Shown: piece by piece, positions 16,785 through 27,448 of the stretch | How positions within the stretch are numbered: the stretch's first letter is position 1 | How the letters are laid out: the number at the start of each line of letters is the position of its first letter | NCBI GenBank assembly: GCA_028714315.1 | Contig: JAQTMN010000024.1 | Coordinates: 1,750-35,332, forward strand | Reading direction: 5' to 3' | From: Sulfuricella sp. | GTDB lineage: Bacteria > Pseudomonadota > Gammaproteobacteria > Burkholderiales > Sulfuricellaceae | Length of the DNA: 33,583 nucleotides | Notes under the pieces: generated by a model | Database searches by the model: none | Seen by the model: the letters and a program-made list of their open reading frames with translations, nothing else | What the model was told of the DNA's origin: nothing | Position numbers and translations under genes: made by a program

Positions 16785-16971
16785 TGTAGGTGCGAATTTA
16801 TTCGCACAGCCAGCGGTTAACGTGAAACTCGCGAAGCGAGACCTCGTCCCCCTCTCCCGCAGGCGGGAGAGGGTTAGGGGTGAGGGAAACGGTCGGGGCG
16901 AAGCGCTGTTTCATGATTTGGGGCGGCGATTCGCCATGACCGTTATTTGTGCGAATAAATTCGCACCTACA
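16785..16971. repeat. Composite element: inverted REP-like palindromes enclosing a second palindromic element
   Basis: The ends are TGTAGGTGCGAATTTATTCG (16785-) and its inverted partner (16948-16971), each itself a hairpin (GTGCGAAT/ATTCGCAC). Between them, 16817-16945 is a separate element starting TTAACGTGAAACTCGCG and ending GCCATGACCGTTA, with cargo CCCTCTCCCGC / GCGGGAGAGGG. The same end module occurs at 25934-25996 with a short spacer, and the inner shell occurs at 24599-24726 and 27271-27448. Confidence 0.85.
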
Positions 16972-16996
16972 GTGGTCCCTGACGCCGGTTTCCAGC

Positions 16997-17911
16997 TTAT
17001 TTCCTGGCTGGCTGCATCACCTGCGCCGCCTCTTTCAGCAAGAATTCCTTGAATGCCTGCGCCACGGTGGACAGCCGCTTGCCCTTGCGGTGCACCACGA
17101 ACCAATGGCGGCGGATGGGAAAGGAATCGACGTCGAGCACGACCAGGCGTTTGGTTTCGAGCTCCAGCGCGATGGTGAGCAGAGACAGCACGCCCAGCCC
17201 CATGCCGGCTTGCACTGCCTGCTTGATCGCTTCGTCGGTGCTCATTTCCATGCCGGTGGCGAGGTTCAGGTTGTGCTGCACGAAAAACCGCTCCATCGCG
17301 CTGCGGGTGCCGGAGCCCTGCTCGCGCACGATGAAGGTTTCCTGCGCCAGGCGTGGCAGCGCGATGTTGCGCTCCTGCGCCAGGGGATGGTTGGGCGGGG
17401 CGATCACCACCAGCGGGTTTTCCATGAAGGGCTCGGCGTCGATGTCGAGTCCGTCGGGCGGCAGCCCCATCACCGCCAGGTCCATTTCATTGTTGGCGAG
17501 CCGGTTGAGCAGCACTTCGCGGTTAATCACGTTCAGGCTCAGGGTGACGTTCTGGTTGCGCTGGCAGAACAGCGCCAATAGCTGGGGCGCGAAGTAGTTG
17601 GCGGTACTGACCACGGAAATATTCAGCTTGCCGCGCTTCAACCCTTTCATTTCTTCCATCACCGCTTCCGCCTCGGCCAGTTGCTGGGCGATATTGCGGC
17701 TGTAGTGATGGATTTCGCGGCCGGCATCGGTGAGGAAGATCTTCTTCCCGATCTGCTCGAACAGGGGCAGGCCCACGCTTTCTTCCAACTGCTTGATTTG
17801 CATGGAAACGGCGGGCTGGGTCAAATGCAGCGCCTCGGCGGCGCGGGAAAAGCTGAGCAGGCGGGCCACCGCTTCGAACACTTTGAGTTGGCGCAGGGTA
17901 ACGTGGAGCAT
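16997..17911 (-). CDS. cbbR: LysR-type regulator of CO2-fixation genes
   Basis: A 304-residue LysR-family protein. The N-terminal HTH covers about residues 5-65 (TLRQLKVFEAVARLLSFSRA, LTQPAVSMQIKQLEESVG). The effector domain has RGKLNISVVSTANYFAPQLL and EQGSGTRSAMERFF, strongly resembling CbbR. CbbR activates cbb operons in response to metabolites such as RuBP or NADPH. It is divergent from purC, which precedes cbbM, and is the likely regulator of cbbMQO and possibly the tkt run. No clear SD precedes the ATG at 17911. The 130-base divergent spacer is AT-rich near cbbR (TCTTTATTAATC, TTATATTAG) and may hold its operator. Confidence 0.93.
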   Translation of the reverse strand: MLHVTLRQLKVFEAVARLLSFSRAAEALHLTQPAVSMQIKQLEESVGLPLFEQIGKKIFLTDAGREIHHYSRNIAQQLAEAEAVMEEMKGLKRGKLNISVVSTANYFAPQLLALFCQRNQNVTLSLNVINREVLLNRLANNEMDLAVMGLPPDGLDIDAEPFMENPLVVIAPPNHPLAQERNIALPRLAQETFIVREQGSGTRSAMERFFVQHNLNLATGMEMSTDEAIKQAVQAGMGLGVLSLLTIALELETKRLVVLDVDSFPIRRHWFVVHRKGKRLSTVAQAFKEFLLKEAAQVMQPARK

Positions 17912-18041
17912 AAATAATATTTTACGTGGTGGTCGGTTTGTCTTTATTAATCTTATATTAGCAGGGTCTGCAATGGAACAAGCGGACTAATTTCCAGTAG
18001 AATTCGCAAGTTGCGCAAAAGTTCATCCCGAAGGAAACAAT

Positions 18042-18923
18042 ATGACCGATTCCCTGTTCAATTCCAGCATCCGCAGCCTGCCCCTGCTCAACCGCGGCAA
18101 GGTGCGCGACATTTACGCGGTGGACGACGAGCGCCTGCTGATCGTCACCACCGATCGCCTGTCCGCCTTCGATGTGGTGTTGCCGACGCCGATCCCGGAC
18201 AAGGGCAAGGTGCTGACTGCGATCTCCGACTTCTGGTTTGCCAAGCTAGGCCACATTTTGCCCAACCAGCTGACCGGCATCGCGCCGGAATCGGTGGTCG
18301 CCGCCGAAGAACGCGGCCAGGTCGTCGGACGCGCCACGGTCGTGCGTCGCCTCAAGCCGCTGCCGATCGAGGCCATCGTGCGCGGCTATCTGGTCGGCTC
18401 GGGCTGGAAGGAATACAAGACCCAGGGCAGTGTGTGCGGCATCCCCCTGCCCGCCGGCCTGAAGGAAGCGGACAAGCTGCCGCAGCCGATCTTCACCCCG
18501 TCCACCAAGGCCGAAGCGGGTGCCCACGACGAGAACATCAGCCTGGCCCGCGCCGAGGAATTGCTCGGCAAGGCGCTTGCCCGGCAGGTGAGCGACGCCG
18601 CCATCGCGCTGTACAAAGAGGCGGCCGATTACGCCCTGACCCGCGGCATCATCATCGCCGACACCAAGTTCGAGTTCGGCCAGGACGAGGACGGCAAGCT
18701 CTACCTCATCGACGAGGCGCTGACGCCGGATTCCTCCCGCTTCTGGCCCGCCGACCAGTACGCGCCGGGCGCCAATCCGCCGAGCTTCGACAAGCAGTAC
18801 GTGCGCGACTGGCTGGAAAGCCTCAACTGGAACAAACAGCCCCCCGCGCCGGAATTGCCGGCGGATATCGCGGCGAAAACGGCGGAAAAATACCGCGAGG
18901 CGCTGACCCGTCTCGCCGGTTGA
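18042..18923 (+). CDS. purC: Phosphoribosylaminoimidazole-succinocarboxamide synthase (SAICAR synthetase)
   Basis: A 293-residue enzyme of purine biosynthesis joining CAIR and aspartate with ATP. It has [61 protein letters not shown] sequence, [11 protein letters not shown], and DTKFEFGQ then [15 protein letters not shown]. The length fits the longer PurC type. AAGGAA precedes the ATG. A purine gene between cbbR and cbbM is unusual; its 138-base 3' spacer contains the AT-rich cbbM control region, so it is probably a separate transcript. Confidence 0.97.
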
Positions 18924-18955
18924 GGCCGGTTTCGCCAGCGCATTTTCGATAAGTA

Positions 18956-25996: not shown

Positions 25997-26010
25997 GTAG
26001 TTGTCGTCCG

Positions 26011-26805
26011 TTAAAGCAGGCTGAACAGCATCCGCGTACCCAGCGTGAACAAGAGCAAGGCGAAAAACTTCTTCAATTTTGCCACCGGCAGGCGGTGTGC
26101 CAGCCGCGCCCCGAACGGCGCGGTCAGCACGCTCGCCACCACCAGCCCGGCCAGGGCCGGCAGGTAGACGAATCCCAGGCTGTATGGCGGCAGATCGTTC
26201 AGCATCCAGCCGTTGGCGATGTAGCCCGCCGCACCGGCTGCGGCGATCGGGAAGCCGATCGCGGCGGAAGTGCCGATCGCCTGATGCAGCTTGACGTTGC
26301 ACCAGGTCATGAACGGCACGGACAAGGTGCCGCCGCCGATTCCCACCAGGCTCGACACCGCGCCGATCACGCCGCCCGCGCCGAACATGCCTGCCGCTCC
26401 CGGCAGGTCGCGCGAGGGTTTGGGCTTGATGTTGAGCACCATCTGGACGGCGACGTAGTACAGGAACACGACGAAAAAAACCTTGAGGAACGAGGTGGAA
26501 AGATGCGCCGCCAGCACCGAGCCGGCGAGCGTGCCGGCGACGATGCCCGGCGCGATGGCGCGCACCACGCTCCAGTTCACCGCGCCATGGCCGTGGTGGG
26601 CGCGCAGGCTGGAAACCGAGGTAAACATGATGCTGGCGAGCGACGTGCCGAGGGCGAGATGCATGATCTGCCCGGCGGGGAAGTGCTGCGCGGTGAAAAT
26701 GAAGGCCAGCACCGGCACGATGACCAGCCCGCCCCCCACGCCCAGCAGCCCGGCGAGAAAGCCGGCGAAGACGCCGACCGCTAGATAGAGCACCCAGAAT
26801 TCCAC
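26011..26805 (-). CDS. TauE/SafE-family membrane permease (sulfite exporter type)
   Basis: A 264-residue polytopic inner-membrane protein with about eight hydrophobic segments. The N-terminus VGVFAGFLAGLLGVGGGLVI and the internal repeat VSSLVGIGGGTLSVPFMTWC carry the paired glycine-rich signatures of the TauE/SafE family, which export sulfite, sulfoacetate and other anions. In a sulfur oxidiser sulfite is a plausible substrate, but the family is broad. The start is GTG at 26805, directly after the TGA of the EVE gene, so translation is likely coupled. Confidence 0.9.
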   Translation of the reverse strand: MEFWVLYLAVGVFAGFLAGLLGVGGGLVIVPVLAFIFTAQHFPAGQIMHLALGTSLASIMFTSVSSLRAHHGHGAVNWSVVRAIAPGIVAGTLAGSVLAAHLSTSFLKVFFVVFLYYVAVQMVLNIKPKPSRDLPGAAGMFGAGGVIGAVSSLVGIGGGTLSVPFMTWCNVKLHQAIGTSAAIGFPIAAAGAAGYIANGWMLNDLPPYSLGFVYLPALAGLVVASVLTAPFGARLAHRLPVAKLKKFFALLLFTLGTRMLFSLL

Positions 26806-27261
26806 TCAGAGAATTCCCAGAATGAATTCCCATTCACGCGGATCGACCGGCGTGATCGACAGCCGGTTGCCGGTTTGCAGCACGCGCATGCGCTCCAGCT
26901 CGGGATAGGTGCGCAGCTCCTTGATGCTCACCAGCCGGGTTTTCCGGATGAATTTCACGTCCACATTGAACCAGCGCGGCGTTTGCAGCGTCGCCTTGGG
27001 GTCGAAATACTTGTTGTCCGGGTCGAACTGGGTCTGGTCCGGATAGGCCAGCCGGCTCACTTCAGCCAAGCCGACGATGCCCGGCTCGGCGCAGTTCGAA
27101 TGATAAAAAAGCACCTGGTCGCCGACTTTCATCTGGTCGCGCATGAAATTGCGCGCCTGGTAGTTGCGCACGCCGTACCACGCCACGGCCTGGCCCGGCA
27201 GGGCGGCGAGGTCGTCGATGCTGCAATCGCCCGGTTCTGACTTCATCAGCCAGCTGCGCAT
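26806..27261 (-). CDS. EVE-domain protein
   Basis: A 151-residue single-domain protein: MRSWLMKSEPGDCSIDDLAA, WYGVRNYQARNFMRDQMKVG, DQVLFYHSNCAEPGIVGLAE, PRWFNVDVKF and LSITPVDPREWEFI. These are the hallmarks of EVE domains (PUA-like fold), related to human THYN1 and thought to bind modified bases in DNA or RNA. Physiological role unknown. AAGGAAG stands just before the ATG, adjoining the end of the palindromic shell element. Directly precedes the TauE-type gene. Confidence 0.92.
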   Translation of the reverse strand: MRSWLMKSEPGDCSIDDLAALPGQAVAWYGVRNYQARNFMRDQMKVGDQVLFYHSNCAEPGIVGLAEVSRLAYPDQTQFDPDNKYFDPKATLQTPRWFNVDVKFIRKTRLVSIKELRTYPELERMRVLQTGNRLSITPVDPREWEFILGIL

Positions 27262-27270
27262 TTTTCTTCC

Positions 27271-27448
27271 TTAACGTGAAACTCGCGAAGCGAGACTTTG
27301 TCCCCCTCGCCCGCTTGCCCTAAAGGACTCCGATCCGCTACGAGCTGAAGCTCGTGCGGAGTCGTATGCGGGAGAGGGCTAGGGGAGAGGGAAACGGTCA
27401 TGGTGATCGCCGTTTTATGATTCGGGGCGGCGATCGCCATGACCGTTA
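27271..27448. repeat. Palindromic shell element, copy with nested CTCGCCCGC and ACTCCG hairpins
   Basis: The left shell is TTAACGTGAAACTCGCGAAG and the right shell is TTATGATTCGGGGCGGCGAT...CCATGACCGTTA. Inside, CCCCCTCGCCCGC pairs with GCGGGAGAGGG, and within that arm pair sits another palindrome (ACTCCGATCCGC...CTCGTGCGGAGT). The right end overlaps and encodes the C-terminus of the 5-formyl-THF cyclo-ligase gene. Confidence 0.85.

Follow-up and report, generated by a model that had tools for sequence, protein, structure and literature searches.

The small palindromic repeats of a Sulfuricella sp. draft genome are nested within one another, and this arrangement is well supported, genome-wide and dynamic. 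We describe it starting from the window, the whole stretch of 33,583 nucleotides analysed here (contig 24, JAQTMN010000024.1, positions 1,750 to 35,332, of assembly GCA_028714315.1, a draft genome of 2.92 Mb that is approximately 85% complete), in which three elements share constant outer ends, here called the shell, around differing cargo. More unusual than this shell and cargo arrangement is the small inner unit I1, which sits mostly at the tips of other palindromes. Throughout, T denotes a hairpin resembling terminal inverted repeats (TIRs), D a doublet of repetitive extragenic palindromes (REPs), G a GTAG-type REP palindrome, W a hairpin type related to T, and I1 to I5 small inner units; L and G followed by a number stand for loci and genomes, and the Sulfuricella genome carrying the window is called the own genome. 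The main comparison genome for orthologous sites was G150, Sulfuricella sp. nzgw577, whose locus L108 holds the nearest named relative of the phosphofructokinase gene of the window (95% amino acid identity).

A constant shell with variable cargo

The three elements of the window share their left and right ends and differ inside, in coordinates, ends and interiors just as a sequence-only reading of this DNA had described them. Element 1 (16817-16945, forward strand), located between a class II fructose-bisphosphate aldolase gene and a LysR regulator gene, carries the claimed CCCTCTCCCGC..GCGGGAGAGGG hairpin as cargo, which is a T hairpin (CCCTCTCCCGCAGGCGGGAGAGGG, 16850-16873, forward) with an unoccupied loop, followed by the motif GGGGTGAG. 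Element 2 (24599-24726, forward), between a DNA alkylation repair gene and the phosphofructokinase gene, carries the 45-bp GTGGGTCAGGC..GTACCCAC doublet, a D (GTGGGTCAGGCTTCAGCCTGAC-T-GTACGGCTGAAGCCGTACCCAC, 24634-24678, forward), and is without counterpart at the orthologous site in L108. Element 3 (27271-27448, forward), between an EVE-domain gene and a 5-formyltetrahydrofolate cyclo-ligase gene, again carries T, this time with a second unit within the T hairpin loop, namely an inverted I3 with its ACTCCG hairpin (about 27315-27369, reverse strand); the element is missing in L111 and L113 and represented by its left end only in L228. Element 1 is moreover enclosed, as had been claimed, by inverted GTAGGTGCGAATT palindromes of the G type (left copy GTAGGTGCGAATTTATTCGCAC, 16785-16809, forward; right copy, 16946-16971, reverse), sitting in their spacer between 42-nt arms that are 81% complementary. 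The order of the layers in this composite cannot be told, because everything between the flanking genes, the whole composite included, is missing in all seven relatives with both flanks aligned (three more loci had one flank only). The further claim that each layer also exists alone elsewhere held for 25934-25996, an insert-free G pair missing in L108 and L111, but not for the two other places named: 958-1060 (reverse) is a D doublet holding I1 (TCTCGCC...GGCGGGGACGCTCCTTGCGGGTG in this copy, 991-1047, reverse) in its GTCAGGC loop, and 22336-22377 contains, at 22343-22376 (forward), a related but different W-type hairpin with a tail, which has neither insert nor shell and is missing in L108.

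Across the genome, the 19-base left end with up to three mismatches gave 107 matches (51+56), compared with none (0+0) for the reversed pattern, so these matches are not due to chance. The left end also occurs outside complete shells, since for 45 of 97 left-end records the pattern used detected no right end up to 700 bases away; by eye, many of these are T units stopping at GGGGAGAGGG and some are fragments. Sorting the 58 shells with both ends in the fetched DNA by cargo, we found T in 32 (19 alone, eight with I1, three with I3, one with I4, one with I3 and I4) and D, in either orientation, in 19 (seven without a recognised insert, 12 with I1, I2 or more). Four of the remaining shells were without any named cargo and three had an inner label or T2 only, among them L017 and L088, by eye two T shells in which the T label was missed; with these included, 27 of the 58 shells hold a recognised inner insert. 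The shell is therefore constant and its cargo variable, which gives the many copies of one shell with different cargo that the sequence-only reading had named as support, but the variation runs across two main classes. Nesting reaches four layers at L054 (shell, D, I1 and I5 in turn, plus I2 in the other D loop) and, by eye, five at L309 (shell, D, I1, a T-like cluster and I4, with I5 in the I1 linker), and nesting of this kind dates the layers relative to each other, inner ones being as a rule younger than outer ones. A query with element 1 found matches in at least 60 of 150 genomes, counting the own genome; every one of the 21 other family genomes was among these. Many of the matches listed from outside the family span the T hairpin only. 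Overall, the shell and cargo reading was right in outline and is supported in part.

I1, mostly at the tips of other palindromes

I1 is approximately 57 bp long, starts with TCTCGCC, ends with GGCGGGGACACTCCTTGCGGGTG and contains a variable hairpin; two hairpins were read in it by eye and only partly reproduced by fold prediction. In the genome, its core was matched 76 times, the control once. All 76 places were fetched and their flanks read, which, with near-identical contexts counted once, gave 75 distinct contexts, five of them unrelated sequence rather than I1 (L043 on the minus strand and four in L313, a locus with a short tandem array of GGTAGGGGCACTCCTTGTGGGTGCCCGTCCCGGCAAGGGCCC-like units resembling the I1 core). 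Of the 70 genuine contexts, 69 are inside or directly beside a host palindromic repeat and 63 have a host arm right at the junction, that is, at the tip: 40 in the GTCAGGC half of D, one in the GTACGGC half of D and 22 in T/W hairpin loops, in a scan that accepted a left arm anywhere within 330 nt upstream and required the right arm to adjoin. One further copy, at L305, is cut at its 5’ end and lies beside a D arm. The D halves read GGCT-TC-AGCC when unfilled and GGCT-T[I1]C-AGCC when filled, with neither duplication nor loss.

The host palindromes differ between genomes. I1 junctions read GTCAGGCTT^CAGCCTGAC in G000 and G001, GTACGGCTT^TAGCCGTAC in G150, GTCGGGCTT^CAGCCCGAC in G020, TCCCCTT^CAAGGGGA in G014, TCCCCTG^ACAAGGGGA in G019 and CCCTCTCCCG^CAGGGAGAGGG in G009, G010 and G013, and the host types comprise D-like palindromes, GTCGGGC..GCCCGAC, CCCCTT..AAGGGG, CCCCTG..CAAGGGG and CCCTCTCCC..GGGAGAGGG. 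A D+I1 query matched 22 of 150 genomes (the own genome, 19 of the 21 other family genomes and two outside the family), and in most of the rows listed from other genera only residues of about 56-118 were matched, which corresponds to I1 without D.

For 97 complete I1 copies from 21 genomes, we compared the flanks across the insert, over a fixed length range, counting a tip where a stem of at least seven pairs, one mismatch allowed, had its apex no more than 4 nt from the junction. Such a stem was present at 65 of the 97 junctions (38 of 50 in the own genome, 14 of 25 in G150, and 13 of 22 in other genomes, the latter being one or two copies per genome from selected loci and not a random sample), compared with 1.8% of 40,000 positions drawn at random from the fetched DNA. 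Before this test, 30 core matches had been dropped, approximately eight of them chance matches by eye, the rest having a further insert inside or a missing 5’ end, with some representing one place in two loci. The same kind of test on the outer shells, with the apex within 6 nt, yielded a stem of at least seven pairs in one of 58 shells of the own genome and one of 28 in G150, no enrichment over a null of 3.5%; location at tips is therefore a property of the inner unit, not a product of the method. The idea that palindromes insert repeatedly into the loops of other palindromes thus does not apply to every layer, and shells as general loop-seekers were rejected; by eye, a few shells (L026, L074, L081, L084) lie within G- or D-like palindromes, some of them degraded. 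An earlier, stricter stem test gave a lower figure for I1 (at least six pairs in 32 of 60), in part because copies with further inserts had been assigned wrong start points, and by the same test I2 and I3 behaved like I1, with at least five pairs in 15 of 17 and seven of nine copies, respectively, at a null of 3.8%.

Filled and empty sites and the origin of the nesting

Alignments of the own genome with G150 were read at 23 sites for elements with a shell, T, D or I1, all with both flanks comparable (the single-flank pairs L040, L074 and L310, the last as L310/L389, were set aside). Empty sites in a relative, which the sequence-only reading had anticipated, make up ten of the 23: element 1, element 2, L043 (two), L279:9376, L057:947, L019, where an oppositely oriented family element lies nearby in the same gap of G150, L024:1103, where the remaining bases have diverged in G150, L068 and L284. 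The reverse, a site empty in the own genome and filled in G150, occurs once (L024:504), and at L017 other bases take the place of the element in G150. Element 3 and L288:10229 have only the left end in G150, which may reflect either deletions or older states. At six sites (L032, L088, L279:5185, L288:265, L057:207 and L309), the same gap in G150 holds repeats that are unrelated or in the opposite orientation, and these sites give no support to stepwise nesting. A site lacking only inner layers was found as well: at L061/L205 shell and T are common to both genomes, and I3 and I4 are present in G150 only. The two remaining sites are L086:1029-1117 against L234, a shared shell element whose T hairpin was lost in the own genome by a 31-bp deletion, and L078/L218, where the genomes agree in left end and position and differ in cargo, one having D and the other a T-like one.

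With respect to enzymes, the Y1 transposase domain (Pfam PF01797) has seven matches in the own genome and occurs in 20 of 22 family genomes, own included. A gene resembling a REP-associated tyrosine transposase (RAYT; 149 amino acids, HLH motif) lies between D doublets at L015, a Y1 gene between GTAGGAGCGGCC palindromes at L011 resembles TnpArep (PDB 4er8, E 3.5e-5), and GGGGTCA-type TIRs are present at four own loci (L009, L012-L014). L012 and L013 (G000:C4) hold Y1 genes approximately 4 kb apart with the same predicted protein, and many fragments of its GGGGTCACATCTTGACAT end follow L013. The motif GGGGWSAS is present in T (GGGGAGAG), W (GGGGTGAG) and I1 (GGGGACAC) and absent in I3, I4 and D, although it is weak evidence, given a background of 0.27 per kb on each strand of DNA that already abounds in such repeats. 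Elements of the IS200/IS605 kind have hairpins near their ends and a short, invariant target word on the 5’ side of the left end. I1 shares such hairpins, as read by eye, and, in D halves, shows no larger target duplication, the latter being a criterion for this group in the available text of PMC2817692. The common GGGGWSAS motif, the lack of target duplication and the hairpin form would together link I1 and T to Y1/HUH enzymes.

On balance, we lean slightly towards a two-tier community of small non-coding mobile palindromes, with inner units inserting at outer tips. The outer elements (shells with T or D, W, D and G) would insert into ordinary intergenic DNA, and a second tier of hairpin units of approximately 20-60 bp, with I1 as the best case and I2 and I3 as further ones, would insert at the tips of outer palindromes without target duplication, whereupon the filled composite could spread as one unit and yield multiple layers. 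The inner units would most likely move as single-stranded DNA via HUH/Y1 transposases of the RAYT/TIRYT kind, and in a single-stranded target the palindromes would fold and expose the loop as the target, and the tip would be chosen rather than merely tolerated. The presence of one insert with constant ends at many differing hairpin tips speaks for target choice directed by structure, and location at tips of differing sequence suggests mobile DNA that targets a folded shape and not a fixed sequence. The broader proposal, that I1 and its kin form a class of non-autonomous mobile DNA targeting the folded hairpin tip regardless of sequence, with the composites as a record of successive single-strand insertions, is made tentatively, as a possibility somewhat short of probable; if it holds, extragenic palindromes would be tied to single-strand transposition, and the origin of complex REP loops would become easier to understand.

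Several observations weigh against the two-tier reading. An added inner layer was seen at one orthologous site only (L061/L205), and the deletion at L086/L234 means that absence can also reflect loss. In other genomes nine of 22 I1 copies, and in G150 11 of 25, had stems below seven pairs, partly through mismatches; off the tip, I1 lies in the T stem in four of the 70 contexts (four or five by different counts), by eye in a deletion-bearing T stem in one more (L042), and in T-like tails in G016 and G021, and for one context (L297) no host was recognised. Not all inner units target tips, since I4 and I5 had no stem of at least five pairs in the stricter test (0 of 11 and 0 of 3), I4 inserting at one stem point, GGGA^GAGGG or near it, of several T-like hairpins (L309, L072, L041 and others), and I5 having inserted in a linker. 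The 97 I1 copies stand in 57 distinct 7+7 contexts and show no constant 5’ target word of the IS200/IS605 type. Furthermore, no shell, T or I1 was present at the 35 Y1 loci scanned (seven from the own genome, which is approximately 85% complete, and 28 from the family, a part of the family Y1 matches, some ending at contig ends, with W not in the scan), where L248 and L249 showed a 14-base I2-like motif with two mismatches and nothing more. The earlier suggestion that a RAYT transposase moves the elements accordingly has in its favour the seven Y1 matches and the RAYT-like gene tied to D, and nothing of the kind for shell, T or I1.

Host type and I1 subtype are also associated (in a sorting whose pattern ‘a’ was loose and included some ‘b’ copies of the T/W loop), so that many copies stem from few insertion events. 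This would likewise be expected if units inserted anywhere and only those at tips left the outer hairpin mobile, so that these multiplied; the association means that composites were amplified, and at the empty sites it is the whole composite that is absent. Yet copies in the different hosts of other genomes are still mostly at tips (13 of 22), stem insertions recur too (I1 in the T stem, and I4), and almost no I1 lies outside repeats in the own genome; we regard such survivorship as unlikely, if far from negligible.

A sequence- or palindrome-specific DDE or IS110-type transposase could instead move I1 in trans, comparable to the entry of IS1397, ISKpn1 and IS621 into REPs. Insertion sequences (ISs) of five families that use REPs as targets, among them these three as well as ISPpu9, ISPpu10 and ISPsy8, are in print, and the available text of PMC1525189 holds their transposases responsible for target choice. 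The same text gives a target duplication of three bases for ISPsy8, whereas the filled D halves have none; the host sequences are varied, and no autonomous element with I1 ends was seen at the 35 Y1 loci, where it was searched. We regard this explanation as improbable. Similarly low is the probability that homologous recombination or gene conversion exchanged cargo between shells through the hairpins and arms they have in common: L078/L218, with D against T-like cargo behind the same left end, and the occurrence of D in both orientations within shells would fit such exchange, which nevertheless leaves I1 in the differing hosts of other genomes and the clean empty sites unexplained. REP families with long self-complementary loops are described in the accessible part of PMC3733652, but a single old, diverged repeat family, or loop growth by slippage or template switching, is scarcely credible here and was rejected, being contradicted by one I1 sequence with constant ends in hosts that differ between genomes, with empty and filled states.

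Known systems and other features of the window

Cases of palindromes within palindromes are already in print. The available text of Di Nocera 2013 (PMC3733652) describes, for A. variabilis, T. roseum and H. neapolitanus, REP dimers embedded in palindromes, and that of PMC2670323 palindromic repeats inserted inside each other in Volvox organelle DNA. In both, repeats are embedded within palindromes as in Sulfuricella; as far as the text at hand goes, the three species have one host type each, whereas in Sulfuricella one insert occupies many hosts in several layers with empty and filled sites compared, and the Volvox repeats, some of which form larger composites at several places, are organellar and without a reported fixed tip junction. 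Nothing closer appeared in the accessible parts of PMC8266576, PMC3686654, PMC12306157, PMC2817692 and PMC4478555, a set that leaves the subscription literature mostly uncovered and so is no proof of absence from print; PMC8266576, by workers on TnpA-REP, states in its available text that the spread of REPs is still to be elucidated.

Among described classes, D and G alone resemble the GTAG/GTRG REPs with RAYT genes (REPtrons; Nunvar 2010, Di Nocera 2013), being tagged palindromes (GTGGG/GTAGG tags) often in inverted dimers. D flanks the RAYT-like gene at L015, another such gene is flanked by the GTAGGAGCGGCC palindromes, and no flanking RAYT gene was seen for G, shell, T or I1 at the Y1 loci scanned. 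Unlike in REPtrons, other mobile units, stacked in several layers, fill the REP loops of Sulfuricella. TIR repeats of TIRYT transposases carry GGGGWSAS in the part of Di Nocera 2013 at hand, and T, W and I1 likewise combine this motif with self-complementary tracts; the four own transposase loci with GGGGTCA-type TIRs are a further likeness. In contrast to TIRYT TIRs, neither T, shell nor I1 flanked a Y1 gene at any of the 35 loci, in a scan that did not include W. The REP-targeting ISs (PMC1525189, as far as available) share palindrome-directed insertion with I1 and differ in being full ISs with a gene of their own, whereas I1, at approximately 57 bp, is without a transposase gene.

Further repeats accompany these elements. 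Imperfect ACTGATAACTGA / TCAGTTGTCAGT repeats are clustered at 8378-9446 of the window in both orientations, with approximately 40 nt per unit. Another palindromic repeat, ACCGCAAAGGCGC..GCGCCTTTGCGGT, lies at 21357-21486 of the window, at L279:8375-8516 and at L288:9052-9181; it is absent from the relative at the first two sites, and other sequence occupies the relative at the L288 site. GTAGGTCGGGCACCCCGTGCCCGAC palindrome pairs are present in the relative at L108:1810-1958 and 5053-5198, and the window is without them at the matching sites. At the Rfam gathering score, no match lay inside the repeat elements of five sources; the only Rfam matches were a 6S RNA (28053-28231, reverse) and a cobalamin riboswitch (28887-29095, forward) elsewhere in the window, both above their gathering scores.

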